Shown piece by piece: positions 9,223 through 59,300 of a stretch of DNA of 64,000 bases. Every line of letters begins with the position of its first letter. The stretch's first letter is position 1. Source of the DNA: Zygnema cylindricum (Eukaryota > Streptophyta > Zygnematophyceae > Zygnematales > Zygnemataceae); contig JBBHKE010001414.1 in the NCBI GenBank assembly GCA_037447655.1, positions 1 through 64,000 of the forward strand, in the 5' to 3' direction. The notes beneath the pieces were generated by a model, which searched no databases, was not told the DNA's origin, and saw only the letters and a list, made by a program, of their open reading frames with translations. Position numbers and translations under genes: made by a program.

Positions 9223-9363
9223 AAGGCGGGTTTAGATTCCGGATGGAATTTTTTTTGTCCGAAGGCGGGTTTAGATTCCGGATGGAATTTTTTTTGTCCG
9301 AAGGCGAATTTATATTCCGGATGGAATTTTTTTTGTCCGAAGGCGAATTTATATTCCGGATGC
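9223..9363. repeat. 39-bp tandem repeat, 3.6 copies, upstream of the secreted-protein gene
   Basis: Copies begin at 9223, 9262, 9301 and 9340 (the last is partial). Each starts AAGGCG and contains TTCCGGATGGAATT followed by a T run and GTCCG. Copies 1 and 2 read GGGTTTAGATTCC and copies 3 and 4 read AATTTATATTCC, so the array has two variant pairs. It lies about 100 bases upstream of the minus-strand start at 9126, in the likely promoter region. Confidence 0.95.
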
Positions 9364-14010: not shown

Positions 14011-14241
14011 GAGGGAGGGAGGGAGGGGAGGGAGAATATGGGGGGGAGGAGAGGGAGAAGGGAAGAGAGGTCAGGGAGAGGAGGGAGGGGGGAGGCAGGG
14101 GAGAGATGGAGGAGGAGGAGGGGGGAGAGCGGCAGAGGGACGGAGGGAGGGAGGGGAGGGAGGTGAGGAAAGAGGGTAGGGGAGGGGAGGAAGGAGTGAG
14201 GGTAGGGGAGGGGAGGAAGGAGTGAGGGAGGGAGTGGGGGT
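14011..14241. repeat. Polypurine (GGGAG/GGGA)n tract
   Basis: About 230 bases of purine on the plus strand, made of GGGAGG, GAGGAG and GGGA units with a duplicated GGTAGGGGAGGGGAGGAAGG block near the right end. Open frames across it are compositional artefacts. The stretch 14242-14731 to its right has no supported feature. Confidence 0.9.
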
Positions 14242-24372: not shown

Positions 24373-27300
24373 TCACAACTCGAAACTGACGGAATGGAAG
24401 TGGAAGGCCGCTGTACTTTCCGTACAGAATCCTTGTCGTTTTCTGCACTCCTTTGCCACAGTCTCCTGGAGCCCCGAAGGTCCGCTGACCAAAACTCCCA
24501 AATGTTTTTCCGAACTTGTCCTACTTACGGAGTCGAAAATTTCTGTGAAAAAAAGGAGAGAGAAAATAAGTAAAAACAGAAAGGTGGATAATTAAAAAGA
24601 AACATGAAAAAGTGAACAAAAAGACATAAACAAACAATGAGAAATGAAATTGTGAAGTTAAAAAAATACTAAAAAAACCAAATAAGCGGATGAATAACTG
24701 ATGAAATAAACGAATAATGAATCTAATAAACTAACAAAAAGGCAACCTGCCCGAGTATTTTTACTCTTGCCCGATGTCTTATTCAGACATTTCCCCGCCC
24801 AACCAAGACTGCCAGAGATTTTTTTCTGCCCCAAATTCTAAAATTTCGAATTTGCCTCTCACCTGATAAGTTTGGCCTTGATCCGTACGTCACATCACTT
24901 GCCCTAAAAAACGTCTCTTTCCTCTCCTTCTGTATACCATTTAGCCCCTGATTTTCACCACTTTCCATACTAATAACATCCTCTTTCTCCTCTCTCACCT
25001 CTCCTCCTCCATTATTCTCTTTCAAATTTCCATTTCCTCCAACATTTTTTGATAGAAATCCTAAATACTTCCAAATTCTTGCACTAAAATAGTACCACAA
25101 AACAACAACTCCTCCAAAAATACCGACTCCCGAAAAAATCGATAAACAGACGAGAGTTCCTCTCAACCAGAAAGGAAAAAATTTGTAGGTTCCGAAATCG
25201 AAGGGATATATAATATACTTTTCGCAAATCACGATAGATAAAATAGTTCCAACAGTGGAAAATAGGATAAGAGAAAATGAGGTTAAGGGACACCCGGTTC
25301 CCGCAAGGGGCATTATGGGGTTTATCCCTGACACTAATTTTTTCGAACTCTGACAGTTTTCTCCATTTAACTGTTCTTCGACCGAAACTTTCCTACTTTC
25401 TCCTCCTGCTCTCTCTCTTTCTCCTCCTCCACTATCTCCAATTGTACCCTCTCCTTCTCCATCTCCGTTTTCTCCAGGTTCTATGTAACAATTTCCGTTA
25501 GAGACAACAGAAGTTTCAAAACAGCAACTTTCGAGATCAGGTTCTGTTTCTTGTGTGACAAAAATTAGGGTTTTGAGGTTGAGAGAGGGAGAAGATTGTT
25601 CTAAAAATCTGGTTTTTTGGGAGAGAGTTTCTATGGTTTTCAGTTCCGATGAATGTCTTACAGACCATATAAAGACAATTTCTTTCGGAAGATTCATCCT
25701 ATTTTGATCGTCGGTTTTAGTATTGGCTCGATGAAGTTTCTCTGAAATTTCCTCCAAAATAGCGAAAAATGGAACCACTCCGATTCCCCCGGCCACCAAA
25801 ATTAGTGTGGAATACCTGAAAAAAAAGGGGGATAAAAAAAATCAAAATGAAAAATTGAAGAAATAGATACATAAATGAATTAAGAAAGATAGTTAAATCG
25901 AGAAAGTACAAAGAAGGTTCTTAAACCGAAAAAGAGTTGAAGGTCTTACTGAAGATAATACTCGTATTCGTGACAATACGGTCCCTCCACTCCAATTCTT
26001 GAAGGGTATTTAAAAGGACAAAGACTTTTTTCTCGGGAATTTTTTTCTCCGGCGATTGTTTCTTGCAAAAGGTTTTTTTGGGAAAGATTATTTGACCAAG
26101 TACCGAGAGGCTTAATAAGAACTTTTAAAGAAGAGGGAGAGGAAAAGGACGAAGAAGCAATACTGAAAGGATGCCATTGGAGGAGAGAAGATTTTGGATC
26201 TTGGATAAAGACAAAACTGAGAGACTTGTGATGCAAATCTGCACGGGAAGCAATAAAAAAACAAAATAGAAACAGACAAAACAGAAAAGACAAAATTAGA
26301 ACAGAATGGAAAGAAAAGTAAGAAAATGGAAGGATAATTCCTAAAGAAAATTAAAAAAGATAAAAAGACATTAAAGACAAACAGAAAGAAAAACAAAAAC
26401 AAAAAACAAAATGACAAAATATCACAAACAAAATTGGAAACTGAATCACATTTTGGTCAAGAGTAGATTTGGTGGTTTTAATTAATGCATTCAAAAAATC
26501 GTTAAAAACAAATTTCAAACAAAAAAAGACAGAAAACACCAACAATACCTTCCCAAAAACAACCCTCCCTCTCTCTCCCTCCCTCTCCCCCTCCCCCTCT
26601 CCTCTGAGCAGTTTCCCTTATTTTCCTGCTTTCCTAATTTGCCCGTTTCCTTCTCTTGTCTGTTTCCTTCTCTTGTCCCTTTCTTACTTCTTGGTTTCGG
26701 GATGACAAGTTGCACCGTCCCACACGGCAGTACAGAAGAAGACAAAACCCCAACGTTTTGCCTCGACTGAATAAGACGAAGGAATCGGTCGAGAGCGAAT
26801 AGCGTGACGGCAGCGAGGATGACAGAAAAGTCAGAATCGCCGCGATGCATCGCCAAACCCAATAGGAAAACGACATAAAGTTGATGGGTATTAAAAAAAA
26901 GCTCAAATTTTTTCACCCGAATGGGTTTAATTGCCGTTACCCAAATAGCCCATCCGGCTAAAAGGGCAATTTCTCCTGGAACAATCGCCACTCTGAGTCT
27001 CGACCACTCGAAAACCTGACCAATGGGAGAGCAGGAAAGAAGAAAAGAGAAACGAAAAGAAAAGAAAAGAAAAGCAGTGAGACAAAAAGAAAAGAAAGAA
27101 AAGAAAAGAGGAGAAAGAAAATCTCAGAAAGAATAAAAAAATGGAAAAATACGGATCGATTTTGGAAGGCTGTATACATATCTCTCTCACCTTTTCCCAA
27201 AATTGGCCCCAGTCGAATCCCCCTCCTCCCTCTCTCTCACCCTCTCCCTCACCCTCTCCCTCTCCCTCCCTCTGCGTCCCTACCCCTCTCCTCCCTCACC

Positions 27301-29877
27301 TTGTTCCAAAGTTGTTCCAAAAGAATCCACTCTCATGTACACCGTCCCGTGGGTGGTACAGAGAGCCAATTTCAAGTCACCCCTCCCTCCCTCCCTCCCT
27401 CTCCGTGTCACTCTCTCACCTTCTCCCAAATCTGCTCCTGTGAGATCATCCCTTTCCCCCTCTCCCTCTCTCTCTCTCTCTCTACCCCACTCTCTCACCT
27501 TCTCTCAAAGCTGGCCCAAAAGAATCCAGTTGACATCCCATCATCAAATCACCCCTCCCTCCCTCTCCCTCTCTCCACTTCTCTCTCACCTTCTCCCGAA
27601 GCTGCCCCAGTAGAACCATCCCTCCCTCCCTCCCCTCTCGCTCTCTCTCTCTCTCCCTCTCTCTCACCTTCTCCCGAAGCTTCCCCAATAGATCCATCCC
27701 TCCCCCCCCCTCCCTCTCTCTCCCTCAGTCTCCCCCTCTCTCACCTTCTCTCGAAGCTGCCCCAGTTGAGTCCACATGACAATGAACATCATCCCATGGG
27801 CGGTAAAGACAACCATCATAAGATGGCCAATCCAGACATGGTACCGTACCGCCTTCTCAAAGGGCAGATTGAAAAGTTTTAGGAGAGGAGAACTTCGTGC
27901 AACCGGCAAAAAAAGAAGGCCCAAAAGAACCAATCCTTGAAACCCTAAATGCTCTCCGACAGCTCCGAGTTTCTGGTACGGGCTGTCAGAAAATTTTTCC
28001 CAACAAATTGAGACGGGACATGTTAGAGTCGCGCTAGGGTTGTGGTAAGATTTTGTAAATTTTGTTGCGTGTTTTATAATAATGACGATTTTCAATGGTG
28101 CAGGTTAGTAGAATAAAGACAGCCATCATCATATTAATTTATTAGGATTTGCTGGGAGGCTTTTTCTTTCTATAAGAAGAAGGAGGAGAATGGTTTTAAG
28201 AGAGGTAATACGAAGTGAGCACTTTGAGAAACACAGTCGTGTAAGTAAATTAAAAAACCCTGACTATAAAAAATATGCATTGTGTGACACTCCCCTGATT
28301 TGAAAATATCGCACTAATAATAGCATGGATTAGCATTAATGGAAAAGATCTAGACATGGAAAGGACAACCACACATCATCACTCTCCATAATAACTGTTG
28401 ATACACCAAAAGATTCCAATTGGATGATATATTTAGTTCAATATGCTCCGCTCTAATTCAATCTGGGAGGTGAATGTTTTGTTGTCCACTTACCTCTTCC
28501 CTAGTGGTAATCATAGTCCACACTAATTTATGTCTCACTTCCACATTTAAATAAAACAACACATAATTTAGCATATTCCACATAGAAACAAAGTTAAGAG
28601 GTGTGATCTGGTGAAAAAAAAAATCTTGAACAAGCTAACAAAAGCGCTGTTGATTGTCGTAAACATAACGATGTATTTTAAAACACTTTTTTTTCCAGAT
28701 TGTGTATGCAGAATGTCATAAACCACATCACAACGAGGAAGAATGAAAAATTATGGTTTCTTCTTTCCTAACACTGTAACGAAGCGTCGGAAGTCCCAAA
28801 ACTTATTCAGAAGTACACCATTAAATTAGTGTGGTCCGTACTGGACCTCATTCCATTTTCTTAAACCACAGTGTACACTGTACAGTACGGTATCGAAATA
28901 AAGAACCATAAAATACAGTACAAAACAGTTTAGTATTATATAACAGTAAAAGTTGGGAAACGAAGCGCCTTTCACACCCAGTACCAGACCGTAGTATACT
29001 ACTATAAGACGTAAAGTACAGTGACGTAAAGTACAGTGATGTAAAGTACAGTAACGTAAAGTACAGTACAGAAACGTAAAGTACAGTTTTCTACGGGACG
29101 TCTGTTCAAGGTGCACCCCCTCCCCACTGGCTCTCTCACATCTTTTTAGGGTTTGCGTCGATTCGGCGAAGCCGTCCTGCCAACTGCGTCCACGCGATCC
29201 ACGCTAATAACGACAAAAGCAGCAGCCAACCGAGAGCCTCCGCCGCCGACACTACTCCCACGGGCGAATGCGACAAAAGGGGATAGGTGGACAGGCGGGA
29301 CATAAGGGAAGGTCGCTTGTTTTTTCTGCACAACGTACGCCGTGTAAGAGACGCAGATTAGGGTTGGAGTTTGTTGTAGGGTTCAAGGAACGGATTAGGG
29401 TTTGGCTGGAAAGTCATTAATTTTAGGGGATTTAGATGGAAGTAAAAGGGAGGTGAAGTGGATGGAGTGGCAATAAAAAAGGAAGTTTTGGAGGGGGCCC
29501 TATCTTTTCTCCCAACTGTATCTATTTTTGATTCCTCTCCCTTTCCTTTTCCTTCCTCTCTTTCTCTCCCTCCCCCCACTCCGCCTTTCTCGCTCTGGCC
29601 ACCTCTTTCTCCCTCTCCTTCTCTCTCCATATGAAAGCGACAACAAGAAAACGACAAAAGTAATGATTTAAAAAGTAAACATAACAAACCATAAACAAAA
29701 CAAAAAAAAAACGTAAACAAAACACAAAAACCTAATAAACTAAACCTATGTTTTTATAAAAAGAGAGAGGGAGGTTTGCAGACCTAGGGTTAGAGATTTT
29801 CCGGTCGATGGCCAAGTAAAGGGGCGCAATTGCAGCAACGGTCATAGCAGGAATAAAATAAAACATCAATCGCGGAC
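24373..29877 (-). CDS. FRO: Ferric-chelate reductase (FRO family), first exon not found
   Basis: Exons on the minus strand: 29877-29784, 29325-29140, 27982-27745, 27015-26688, 26238-25950, 25815-24863 and 24542-24373. Phases agree at every junction, giving 751 codons after the missing start. The first visible exon is a membrane helix (FYFIPAMTVAAIAPLYLAI). Next come SHSPVGVVSAAEALGW and the heme-binding part (RYHVWIGHLMMVVFTAHG and FFNTHQLYVVFLLGLAMH, with the expected histidines). The FAD site is LQWHPFSIASS and the NAD(P)H site is LVAGGIGVVPFFAIL. Two membrane helices sit within the C-terminal region, as in FRO6/7-type proteins. The end is VSGPSGLQETVAKECR then FHFHSVSFEL. The enzyme moves electrons from NAD(P)H through FAD and heme to Fe(III) or Cu(II) across a membrane. 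Oddities: GPYCHE where GPYGHE is usual, an acidic Gly/Glu insert in the NAD(P)H domain, a weak GTCTGC donor after the first exon, and no start codon found. Confidence 0.9.
26561..26608. repeat. CCCTCTC microsatellite in a FRO intron
   Basis: A short pyrimidine run on the plus strand (purine in the FRO transcript) lies in the intron between exons 26688-27015 and 25950-26238. Confidence 0.85.
27186..27776 (-). repeat. Tandem array of seven splice-donor modules in FRO
   Basis: On the minus strand each module reads roughly GGGGCAGCTTCGGGAGAAG followed by GTGAGAG, the end of the FRO exon at 27745 plus its donor. The exon-side edges are at plus positions 27745 (used in the model), 27668, 27590, 27499, 27420, 27300 and 27191, so spacing is 77, 78, 91, 79, 120 and 109 bases. 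Modules are separated by GAGGGAGA-type purine sequence. The copy at 27300-27372 keeps a longer piece of exon (THG, then DSFG and LEQ before the donor). Every copy keeps a GTGAG donor core, but I see no acceptor between copies, so at most one can be used per transcript. Confidence 0.85.
29008..29087. repeat. 15-bp tandem repeat in a FRO intron
   Basis: Five copies of a unit close to GACGTAAAGTACAGT run through this stretch of the intron between exons 29140-29325 and 27745-27982. One copy has a short TACAG insertion. Confidence 0.9.
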
Positions 29878-36300: not shown

Positions 36301-38175
36301 TGGACGAGGCGACATCAGCGCTAGACACTGAGAGTGAGGCTCTCGTGCAGGCGGCTCTGGACCGGCTCCTGGCAGAGGGAGGGAGGACAGTGGTGCTGGT
36401 GGCCCACCGTCTCTCCACAGTAAGAAACGCCAATCTCATCGCAGTCATGGATAAGGGCATGGTTGTGGAACAAGGAACACACGACGAGTTGCTGCAAAAT
36501 TGTAAGTCTCTCTCGCCTCTCCCTCTCCCTCTCCCTCTCCCGCTCCCTCTCCCCCTCTCCCGCTCCCTCTCCCCCTCTCCCCCCCTCTCCCCCTCTCCCC
36601 CTCTCCTCCTCTCCCCCCCTCTCCCCCTCTCCCCCTCTCTCCCCCTCTCCCCCCCTCTCCCCCTCTCCCCCTCTCCCCCTCTCCCCTCTCCCCCTCTCCC
36701 CCTCTCCCCCTCTCCCTCCCTCCCTCCCTTCCTCCCTCCCTCCCTCCCTCCCTCCCTCCCTCCCTCCCTCTCTACCCTTCCCCGCCTCTTTCTCTCTCTC
36801 TCCCGCTCCCTCCCTCCCTGCCATACAATGGAAAGGTGTTTGGGATATTTTACCGATGCCTGTTTGTGGTTGATTGGAGTACTGCTGAGAGTTACCATTG
36901 CAGAGACCGCTTTGAATCATTGATCCAGCCCTGATGTTGTTCAAGGGCCTCTCATTAGTATTTATTTTGAACTCAGAGTATCTAATACAAAGTTTAGGAC
37001 GGTGATATAAAAGATTAGTAAAGATGGTTAAAGATGGTTCCTCCGAAACTATGGCCTTTGGTTGGATAAAATGGTGGTGAAATGAAAACTTGACCTAATC
37101 CTCCTTTATTGGTCAGTATTATTTTAGGGATATTACTTAATGCTTACCTGGTTTGAAGCAAATTATAACCATCTAAAGGATTGTTTAGTGTTGATGATGA
37201 ATTTGGTCTCTTGGGGCGCTTTTTATTACGGAAGCTTCAATTCCACCTTAATTTTAATCAGCAGCTAGAGGTAGGTGGAAGTTTCTAAGCTTGTATATTA
37301 ATTCTGTAATAGCTGGTTGACTAGTATTGGCTTTCTATGTTATTATGTGCTTTGCCGGAATGTATAATTATCCTGTAGGATAACTCCGTTTTTATTCTTT
37401 TACTCTCCCTCCTGCCATCTCTCCCTTTTCAATCCAGACTATCTCTTGCCTTTCTCTTTCTCTCTTTAACCCGTCTTTCTTGCAAATGCCTTTTCCCAAA
37501 CCACTTCCCTCTCCCTTTTACATCTAACACAGAGAGAATTTGCATGCATCGGAAAATTTATATTAGTGAAGATTCTTGCAGCCATCGTCTGCTGGGCTTG
37601 CAGGATTGTCTTTAAATCTTGTTTTTAAATCATATCCTTCTCTCCTCTCTTCTGTGAAGAGGCATTATTTGACATGTGTAGCGTGTTTGTTCAATTGGTA
37701 CTTTGTCTCGTAGAACATAAATATGTGTTAGTTATTTTCCTCTCTGATTGTCTCTCTTTTCATGGTCTGCCCGCAGCTTGTGGTTGAAACAGAAAGCGTC
37801 ATTATGAATTGCTATTAGGGTTAATAAAACTCTTCAACGTCATTTTTTTTTTGGCCTCTGACCATAAAAAAGACAACCCTCTGACACTAAACTTCGTGTT
37901 AAGTGGTCAATAATAGTTGACATGTTTTGTAACCAAAATCAAACCAATAGCACTGAAACAATTCCCGCACTGACTTCTTCACTTGAATAGTGTTTGATAG
38001 ATGGTGTTGGTACATTAAAACTGACAATGTTTGGTTTTAACTTTTTGTTAACGTTTTGGGTTGAGCAGCTAATGGAGTATATGAGAAGTTGGTCAGCCGG
38101 CAGCTGAATAGAGCGGCAAATGTGATTGGAGGAGATACGCAAGGAGATGATATCGATTCACTTCTTGGAAGATAG
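30363..38175 (+). CDS. TAP-like half-size ABC transporter (B family), 5' part not found
   Basis: Exons: 30363-30587, 30859-31067, 33339-33540, 33974-34335, 34722-34818, 36252-36501 and 38069-38175, all in phase, giving 483 aa to the TAG at 38173-38175. The first exon ([12 protein letters not shown]) enters in the middle of the membrane domain; [17 protein letters not shown] and [18 protein letters not shown]-type segments follow (the latter reads [18 protein letters not shown]). The nucleotide-binding domain is complete: Walker [11 protein letters not shown]-loop [11 protein letters not shown], signature RLSGGQRQ, Walker [13 protein letters not shown] and H-loop VAHRLS. Half transporters of this type are about 600-700 aa, so roughly 150-250 N-terminal residues with the first membrane helices are missing. 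Such proteins dimerise and export peptides or other solutes from organelles or vacuole; the substrate is not predictable. Introns are long (up to 2.3 kb). Confidence 0.92.
34840..35095. repeat. Degenerate tandem repeat in ABC intron 5
   Basis: Six or so copies of a 40- to 47-base unit around GTGTAACAGAAACCTTTTATG and TTCCTTG follow the donor at 34819. Copies differ in length and sequence. It starts within 25 bases of the exon. Confidence 0.75.
35831..36251 (+). repeat. Degenerate repeats with acceptor-like copies before an ABC exon
   Basis: Units of the type GTAACTTGAACATATTAT and A runs fill the end of this intron. Three of them end in acceptor-like strings followed by exon-like bases: ATATTCCAGAGAAAT (about 35834), ATCTTGCAGAGAAT (35941) and ATCTTCCAGAGAAT (36003). 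The true acceptor is CATATTGCAG at 36251 followed by AGAATAGCT. The repeats therefore include copies of the exon's own start. Confidence 0.7.
36508..36823. repeat. (CCCTCT)n polypyrimidine tract in ABC intron 6
   Basis: This is more than 300 bases of C/T, made of CCCTCTCC, CCCCCTCT and CCCTC units. It begins directly after the donor of exon 36252-36501. Both strands stay open across it, giving Pro/Leu/Ser or Arg/Glu/Gly repeats that are not genes. Confidence 0.95.
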
Positions 38176-56300: not shown

Positions 56301-59300
56301 TCTTGCCTGCCTTTGGCTTCTGTGCGTTTGCAGACAGCCGAAGCGCGATGAGGAGAAAGACACTGAAAAGAGTAAGTTCTGATGACCTTTTGGCTCTTTT
56401 TGACTCTCGTTGAAGGTGCAAATTGAAGAGGAGTTGATACCATTAGAAGTCAGTTTCCTGCTTGAATATGGTTTAAGGGTTCCACTGGACATGTAACCGC
56501 CTTTTTTCATGGATGGACATAAGCTGCTGAGGCTTCTGATGAGTTTTTATGTCATTGTAAGAGACTATCAGCTTATTAAACAAAAAACATCGTGTTCTTT
56601 GTTTTTATGTGTGGCTTTGCAAATCTGCAACACCACTGTCATTTTGTAGTCTCTATTTCATTGAACAATTATCACATAGTCTAAATGACGGGTATTTTGC
56701 TTGACTCTGCTACACCGTCCATTGTTATTAGCATTAGTGAATTATTAGTGTTAACACTTTATTAACTGATACATTAAATTACGGTTTTCAACGTGGCGAC
56801 TATTGGGCAATTGTGTTATTGACACAAATTTATGATTTCGGGTCAAAGAAACACTACCTGGAGTTAAGAGTGATGAACTCTGACAGCGATGGGTGGTTGG
56901 AGTTTGCGTGGACCACCAAAGCCTTTTCAAACAATCCTTTTTCTCTGCTTTTATTACGTTTTATGATTTCTCTTATGTACTGCCGTCAAAACTTTTATGA
57001 AGGCCGGGGAAATTACAAATATTGTGCCATGCAGGGAGAATTAACTATATCTTAGTGATCCCATCTGCTGCTCAGATTAGTTTGCATTTCATAACTTTGG
57101 CCGAGGCTAGCTTTCCAACTTTTTTCCATTTGATTTTGGTCTCTGTGATGATCGGTGTAGTTATTGCCAGTTTGTAAGTGGGTTTTTTAGGTTTTGATTT
57201 TACTGTGGTGTTCGCACTGGAGGGCTGGTCCTAAAAAAGATCCCACTCGTAATTTTAGGTCCTTTTGGTGATTACTTCAGGGTTTTGGGGTGTCGATTAT
57301 GTAGTTCCCATTGGAGGGCTCGGCCCAAAAAAGCCTCCCCTCCGAGATTCAAGCGTTCCACGACCTATGAGCACTCGAGTCTTTTCGTTTGACGAGCTCT
57401 TGGAAGCAACAAACAAGTGAGTATTCTTTTTAATTCTTGGTTTTGTGTTTTTTGAAAACGGCCCTTTGTAAGTTTGTTTTCCACACGGTACTGGCAAAGA
57501 TGGGTGCATTCATTTGACGTCTATTAATACGTATTTCTGGGATTTTTTTTCAATCATCTTCATGATTCGAAAGCTCGGAATTGCATGTTAAAGGCAGTTA
57601 CCACAATCCTGATAAGGTTTTGGTTGAGGTTCATTCTGGGAAATGGCAGTTTTGACTCTTTGATGATGCTTGGAGAAGGAGGTTTTGGACGTGTGTATCG
57701 AGGAACCCTGCGAGATGGGACAAACGTGGCCATAAAAAAACTCGCTAGCGGTAGTCATCAAGGAGATCGTGAGTTTCTGGTCGAAGTGGAGATGTTGAGT
57801 CGATTGCATCATCGACATTTGGTGAAGCTGGTGGGATATTATGCAAGTAGAGATTCGCAGCATCAGCTCCTCTGTTATGAACTTGTGCCGAATGGCAGTC
57901 TCGAATATTGGCTACATGGTAAGTCTCGGCACAAATTGGTCTTTGTCTTGTTCCAATCAGTCTCTTCAGAGTCATTTTGTCGCTTGTTATCTTTGTTTAG
58001 GGACTGGGAGAAAGATGAGTGGTGGTTTTTCTGTTGGGACTGGGAGAAAGATGAGTGGTGGTTTTTCTGTTGCTATGTTGCTAAGTTTTTTGCGGTAATA
58101 TGGATATCCATTGCAGTAATAGCTATGACTGGTACACTCTACTTTATGTACGTCCTGAATTACTAATACGGTGAATAATACTTATCTGGTGCCGGTTTTC
58201 TTTTGGCTTTGACCATAAAATAAATTTCTTCCAAAACACTACTTCTAAAACGGTAAACAAATGTCATCCATGTCGTTCAGAACAAATGAATCAATGACAA
58301 CAGGATAATCTTCACATTGATAATCTATTGACTCTTATGGCGATTCGTTGTGTAGTGCACCTTCAATTGCTGTTAAATTTTGTGAGCTTAAAGCGGACTT
58401 AGTTTCAGTAGCAAGTATTTCGGCTTGGATGCCTTGGCTCATTTTGGTCCACTTTTTAATTGTTGCAATCAACCGTATTTCATGGTTTTATACGAAAAAA
58501 CCTCGGCATTGTACTAGAGTTTTTCACTCTTAGGAGGATGAATGATGCCCCTATAGGCTTTCTTGCAGGATGGTATTAAGTAGGATTTGAATGGTGCAGG
58601 TAATCTTGGGGATCGTCAATGTCTTGATTGGGACACAAGAATGAAGGTGGCTATTGGGTCGGCTAAGGGGCTTGCATACCTTCACGAAGATAGTCAACCG
58701 TGTGTTATTCACAGAGATTTCAAGGCGAGCAACATTTTGCTGACCATGGATTTCCACGCCAAAGTCGCTGACTTTGGTTTGGCAAAACAGGCTCCGGAAG
58801 GTCAAGGGGCGTATGTCTCGACACGAGTCATGGGCACTTTTGGGTAAGGAAGCTTTTCATTTTTTATTTTTTATTTTTGTTTTGTAATCAACAAAAAAAC
58901 CCTCATGTTTAGGGCAGTTTTGGGGAAAGTTGTTGCCATTCGAAATGGAGATGCAGCAAGGAACTCGCTTGCAAACGGGGATGTAACTGGAGGTAGAGGT
59001 TGTTTTGGACATTCTGATGAACCCAATATTGGCAAATTGTCCACAATAGTCACCGGTATTCCGCATTTTCCGAAAACAGTGTTGCATATTTTGACGGTTC
59101 TGTGTGTTTGCGAGCAATGCTGAATATTGTTTACTATTTTTAGGGTTTGGTTGAGGACAAATCAAACCGCCTAAAATATTTTGCCGATTCAATTGTGCTG
59201 GTCAATATAGTTGCAGGAACAGTTTAAGCCTACTGTAGTATTCGTTCCCAATACTACTGCAGTTATACCATAGACAACCTGCTACTTTTTCGTTCACCTG

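Follow-up and report, generated by a model that had tools for sequence, protein, structure and literature searches.

Within the window, the 64,000-base stretch of DNA analysed here, the end of a ferric-reductase (FRO) exon and its splice donor recur in tandem in the following intron, giving seven AAGGTGAG (AAG/GTGAG, the slash marking the splice junction) on the minus strand, the exon's own donor included (Table 1). We regard it as probable that this array is a minisatellite which spans the exon-intron junction and has grown by tandem duplication, with donor 1 being productive and the six downstream donors acting as decoys.

Table 1. Features of the FRO locus in the window. Scores are from local alignment to the exon, with the shuffle maximum in brackets; ungapped matches are to the exon end over the 30 bases before each donor.
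Feature	Position	Strand	Exon bases aligned	Score (shuffle maximum)	Ungapped match	Remarks
Exon A, array source, copy 1	27745..27982	-				ends ...WTQLGQLREK, phase 0; acceptor CTGACAG/CCCGTACC; Pfam matches on joined exons
Donor 1, GTGAG	27740..27744	-				G of GT at 27744; exon B stays in frame from this donor alone
Copy 2, exon-like piece and donor	27663..27696	-	30	47 (24)	73%	GT 27667-27666
Copy 3, exon-like piece and donor	27585..27614	-	25	52 (26)	80%	GT 27589-27588
Copy 4, longer exon-like piece and donor	27494..27545	-	49	54 (34)	80%	GT 27498-27497
Copy 5, exon-like piece and donor	27415..27444	-	26	35 (26)	63%	GT 27419-27418
Copy 6, longest exon-like piece and donor	27295..27368	-	71	54 (34)	63%	GT 27299-27298
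Copy 7, exon-like piece and last donor	27186..27220	-	29	35 (27)	50%	GT 27190-27189; border of GA-rich and AU-rich sequence
Whole array	27186..27744	-				77% purine, 43% AU
Intron-like stretch, donor 7 to acceptor	27016..27190	-				175 nt; 67% AU and 21% purine over 27016-27185
Exon B	26684..27015	-				starts VFEWSRLRVAIVPGEIALL at 27015 after CAG; right edge approximate

The donor array and its gene

The sequence-only reading of this DNA had described a donor module in seven copies 77-120 bases apart, each keeping an AAG-GTGAG donor, and both points hold: the spacings are 77, 78, 91, 79, 120 and 109 bases, and positions -3 to +5 are identical in seven of seven donors (the donor coordinates of that reading being those of the base preceding each GT). 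Across 2,000 dinucleotide shuffles of these 611 bases, AAGGTGAG occurred 0.0575 times on average and twice at most; the whole window contains 12 on both strands, 7 of which lie within the array. In addition, AGGGTGAG is found at 27252 and 27240, inside the array filler. The array consists of head-to-tail units of tens of bases, as minisatellites do; TRF reports a period of 78 with 2.8 copies at 27552-27766, and alignment resolves the seven modules.

The frame of the gene is open across four joined exons, which match the Pfam families Ferric_reduct (2e-20), FAD_binding_8 (1e-14) and NAD_binding_6 (1.1e-9), all above their cut-offs. In protein alignments the joined exons are 38-42% identical to plant FROs and 70% identical to one unnamed C-terminal relative of 404 aa, and a search with them returned two proteins, at 56 and 46% identity, neither of which was informative on donor use. 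When the 352.8-Mb assembly was searched at the protein level, six FRO-like loci came up in addition to the window locus and its haplotig C932; among these six, the two in C568 and the one in C1393 are near copies of one another. The position of the array-bearing intron is kept in all six, with introns of 205, 216, 220, 348, 348 and 346 nt (64-71% AU), and the donor array is absent from the matching intron in each of them, this comparison being one of paralogues within a single assembly.

Exon-like bodies of the copies

All six downstream copies resemble the exon more closely than expected by chance, since their local alignment scores, which include 5 donor bases, exceed the maxima (24-34) of 300 letter shuffles, and every ungapped body match of at least 18 of 30 bases overlaps a copy among copies 2-7. 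These bodies bear on the notion that the array is simply a GA satellite in which GTGAG arose by accident and the resemblance to the exon by chance. GA-rich filler does sit between the copies and is common in the assembly, a 451-base query from the locus giving at least 106 matches after 40 of its 642 candidates had been scored; apart from the FRO locus and its haplotig these matches are confined to the filler part of the query (L005, L006 and L008 were read), and the GA satellite L008 contains several AGAAGGTGAG without an exon. However, it is the non-GA bodies that surpass the shuffles, and the 30-nt body matches of at least 18 peak at 20 in shuffles versus 24 in two of the copies, which leaves a satellite origin without the exon highly improbable.

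The long exon-like copy that had been placed at 27300-27372 was recovered as 69 bases on the minus strand (27368-27300), and copy 4 contains a second, shorter one (minus 27545-27499). When copy 6 was searched for elsewhere in the assembly, with simple repeats skipped, only the FRO locus and its haplotig matched, and its derivation from a transposon or from another FRO gene was rejected for this reason. Copies 2 and 3 are 90% alike, the 30-nt bodies differ pairwise by 10-53%, and body identity declines with distance from the exon, with a Spearman coefficient of -0.79 (P 0.059, n=6), a trend not significant at 0.05. Copies 4 and 6 have TGGATTCTTTTGG in common, which reads W-I-L-L in the phase of the donor; W-I-L occupies the same exon position in five of the six paralogues (C1052 is without it), and the present FRO exon has W-T-Q. 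Judged by eye, some copies may thus keep an older state of the exon.

Sister arrays in the assembly

Three spaced-donor patterns were surveyed over the 352.8-Mb assembly, each against a reversed control, and led to four exon-edge arrays, namely those of the FRO gene, of a GT8 gene (C537 and its haplotig C1816), of C1662 and of a WDR20-like gene (C1031). Donor repeats in general are not in excess, lying above the reversed control in one of the three patterns. Searched at gaps of 65-95, three AAGGTGAG produced 46 matches in 14 contigs versus 107 in the control, or 13 loci with the FRO haplotigs counted as one; nine of the 13 were read in sequence, and two of them, FRO and C1031, are exon-edge arrays. 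C608 and C1101 were classed as short-unit satellites and C66 and C595 as repeats with no exon seen beside them, C630, C2384 and C2268 are taken up below, and C42, C1150, C1787 and C2440 have short units as judged from the printed matches. CAGGTGAG at gaps of 65-95 gave 6 matches versus 2 in the control (C537, C1816 and C1662), and both loci are exon-edge arrays. Triples of AGGTGAGT at gaps of 60-90 gave 0 matches in the assembly versus 18 in the control, a gap limit that also misses the WDR20-like array. A separate scan covered 170,121 bases, stretches of haplotigs among them, and looked for pairs of donors that share their flanks; it found 79 sites and 4 pairs, all at the WDR20-like locus, versus 84 sites and 0 pairs for the reversed motif; it underestimates such pairs, because its complexity filter hides the FRO array itself.

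In the GT8 gene, an exon ending ...WYREPFTQ is followed by eight more CAG/GTGAGGAGAG, nine donors in total at spacings of 27-41, and the next exon falls in GT8 (Glyco_transf_8, E 7.4e-6). Its haplotig also has nine units, the ninth with a changed -1 base and hence a broken donor, and the two contigs differ by SNPs and indels, among them a GA indel, both inside and outside the array. C1662 repeats a purine-rich exon tail five times; GTGAG is preceded by CTACAG or CTATAG in four of these copies and by ATCG in one, and the donor core shows 3 changes in 40 positions. The C1662 exon forms an 86-residue open frame that follows CAG, for which Pfam gave nothing at E 1 and PDB chains none below E 0.17; the gene seems reminiscent of EXO70. 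In C1031 the preceding exon matches WDR20 in a comparison with PDB (6jlq, E 1.2e-4), and a Pfam search with the 69-aa piece gave no match. The exon ends CAAG/GTGAGT and the first 83-102 nt of the intron recur, GTGAGT being kept in three more copies and lost in the next, so that this AU-rich array, which is without purine runs, has four intact donors and is decaying. Capture of the splice site by a repeat seated at an exon edge, as put forward in the sequence-only reading, fits three further loci of the assembly.

Contig C932 also carries the FRO array, with no difference between 26478 and 28013, but C932 looks like the other haplotype and as such provides no independent evidence for it. As to copy-number variation between alleles, a feature of minisatellites, the FRO array is identical in its two contigs and GT8 has nine units in both. 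We attach very little weight to the array being an assembly artefact: the identity of its two contigs could reflect a shared consensus, but the difference between the copy bodies is too large for a mis-joined repeat, and the two contigs with the GT8 sister array differ both within it and around it, which makes misassembly of the FRO array unlikely. Copy counts taken from the assembly are inflated, as both haplotypes are present. The window contig (C1059) and C932 represent the two haplotypes as a patchwork in which some stretches are identical and others differ, with ~94-98.6% identity in pieces. Among the best 120 of 774 matches to GH31, the closest named relatives are 50-57% identical (Adiantum, Diphasiastrum, Selaginella, Taxus, Marchantia), which suggests that the DNA may well come from a non-seed land plant.

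Four other loci are of note. L056 (G000:C2268:91200-93200) has four irregular AAGGTGAG behind a coding-looking stretch, with one more further on, and precedes a frame that by eye resembles Rad4/XPC (EFARMVHQSHLLCLLARG); it is a candidate fifth donor array. L039 (G000:C66:268505-268678) holds three times, at intervals of 82-84 nt, a T-tract with AAG/GTGAGA(C/G)AAAAAC behind it, resembling a repeated ratchet-type splice site. L055 (G000:C2384:46700-48900) is a GA-rich repeat with seven AAGGTGAG whose start coincides with the stop codon closing a frame rich in proline, glycine and methionine, and L046 (G000:C630:50180-50391) is a 102-nt repeat in an open frame with three AAGGTGAG, probably a protein repeat.

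Donor choice and reading frame

Joined to exon B, FRO donor 1 leaves the frame open, donor 2 shifts it and runs into a stop in exon B, and donors 3-7 meet one already in the added sequence, where the second donor supplies the TGA. Given that all six downstream donors end in a premature stop, productive splicing requires donor 1 and the downstream donors are no source of full-length isoforms; we infer that donor 1 is used for productive FRO mRNA. The sequence-only reading had suggested that the array could cause alternative 5' splice sites or cap splicing accuracy; any such use of donors 2-7 would be unproductive. The GT8 array behaves alike, with donor 1 open, donor 2 stopping in the next exon and donors 3-9 in the added part, and when the four loci are taken together, every one of the 21 downstream donors runs into a stop, which lies in the added part for 19 of them and in the next exon for 2. 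Such stops are expected, since GTGAG contains TGA and the sequence is under no coding constraint; their universality is no sign of selection, yet it turns wrong choices into null ones.

A different reading would have the equal donors selected as a regulatory array, which sends a tunable share of FRO transcripts to the stop-containing form and lowers output. In its favour, the donor core has 0 changes in 56 positions versus 38 in 168 for the bodies (Fisher 7e-6; 0/48 versus 33/144, 3.6e-5, for copies 2-7 alone), and stops follow all downstream donors. However, the constancy of the core is no proof of selection, because the copies were found by their core, share descent and consist of slippage-prone purine sequence, so that neither sites nor copies are independent, and the stops are expected by chance as stated above. 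In addition, the C1662 core has changed, the donor is missing from the later WDR20-like copies, and donor 9 is broken in one of the GT8 haplotypes. We therefore consider selected regulation unlikely. Part of the donor uniformity may stem from satellite homogenisation, since a GA satellite without an exon is able to produce AGAAGGTGAG, as L008 shows, and this weighs against the preferred reading of the array as well.

Alternatively, donor 7 or another late donor might win through recognition of AU-rich sequence, in which case the transcript would be mostly null and the FRO gene decaying. Purine-rich sequence gives way to AU-rich sequence at donor 7, and AU-rich sequence favours the recognition and splicing of plant introns (PMC8831610, PMC2674458), a preference that would make donor 7 the natural border in place of donor 1. 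Against this, the coding part of the gene is without sign of decay, as its open frame and three Pfam domains indicate, and we give a late winner only a small chance.

A proposed origin

For the preferred reading, a junction-spanning minisatellite, we envisage a repeat unit made up of the exon tail, the donor and the GA-rich intron start, which would have been duplicated in tandem by replication slippage or unequal exchange between the purine runs flanking the donor. Growth of the array would have pushed the old intron start ~555 nt from the exon. From donor 7 to the acceptor the sequence resembles a complete intron by itself, and for this reason the simplest history would be that an array of ~555 nt was inserted at the old exon-intron boundary. 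Transcripts from the downstream donors would carry a premature stop and be null or decayed; the mRNA decay as well as the duplication mechanism are our deductions from the DNA. As the downstream donors appear to be null decoys, the array more probably amounts to a near-neutral or mildly costly load than to a generator of isoforms.

In FRO, GT8 and C1662 the donor was read with purine runs to either side, and they are not required, since the WDR20-like array lacks them. It is possible, although we think it rather doubtful, that all of this reflects a recurrent habit of the genome, in which flanking purine runs make the donor the core of the unit and so give rise to junction satellites, young copies lie near the exon and old ones decay, genes accumulate rows of equal donors, the first donor is used as a rule, and the in-frame stop in GTGAG marks errors for decay.

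Choice among equal 5' splice sites has been studied mostly in built constructs. The arrays described here are natural series in which four to nine donors, alike or almost alike in their core, follow an exon at set distances and any choice other than the first leads to a stop. Thus, they could reveal how position affects the choice, how strongly AU-rich sequence pulls in plants and how wrong products are removed, and they constitute natural tests of whether donor 1 or the donor at the AU border wins. They also suggest one way by which introns lengthen and donors multiply.

Relation to known systems

In a potato RdRp gene, a small tandem duplication over an intron-exon boundary, on the acceptor side, multiplied splice signals at a plant splice junction as in the FRO gene (PMC4974935); there, one extra copy yielded a new intron confirmed by RNA reads, whereas the FRO array, known from its DNA sequence, lies on the donor side and has seven copies and no new acceptor. 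The Rogers model and AGGT duplication in Drosophila (PMC2891723) likewise involve duplication of a segment with AG/GT, but in Drosophila an exonic AGGT becomes the donor and acceptor of a new intron, while in FRO an existing donor is multiplied within an existing intron; by eye, the FRO copies bring neither a new acceptor nor a new intron, and the array does not look like a case of intron gain. Tandem splice donors (PMC2279118) also compete at one exon, yet they are separated by 3, 6 or 9 nt and keep the frame, in contrast to FRO donors 77-120 nt apart of which the downstream ones are useless for protein; by these distances and stops the array also falls outside the GYNNGY type (3-12 nt, in frame). 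In RPGR ORF15 (exon 15/intron 15) a purine-rich repeat similarly runs from an exon into its intron, but as an open coding extension, whereas the extensions of the FRO array contain stops (PMC6770968).

The array resembles ordinary minisatellites in its tandem units of tens of bases and in the drift between copies, and is unlike them in that the unit holds a splice donor and an exon tail and occurs in at least four genes of one assembly. Nor do the copies represent tandem duplicated alternative exons, for they contain exon ends only (25-71 exon bases). Acceptors or micro-exons within the FRO copies were rejected by eye, as no pyrimidine tract precedes CAG and purine-rich sequence lies before the copies; with purine-rich sequence in place of a pyrimidine tract, the donors are not recursive (ratchet) splice sites either. 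A donor-side route of intron lengthening and donor multiplication was not found described in the portions of the open-access literature consulted.

Other repeats in the window

A CT-rich satellite at 36504-36819 (+) starts within ~10 bases of the donor AAATT/GTAAGTCTCTCTCG, which is not itself repeated, and the exon before it resembles by eye that of an ABC transporter. Two more GA-rich satellites are located at 2533-2722 and 14011-14234. In addition, the window contains a 39-nt unit repeated 3.6 times at 97% (9223-9362) and a perfect 36-nt duplication at 58000-58072.
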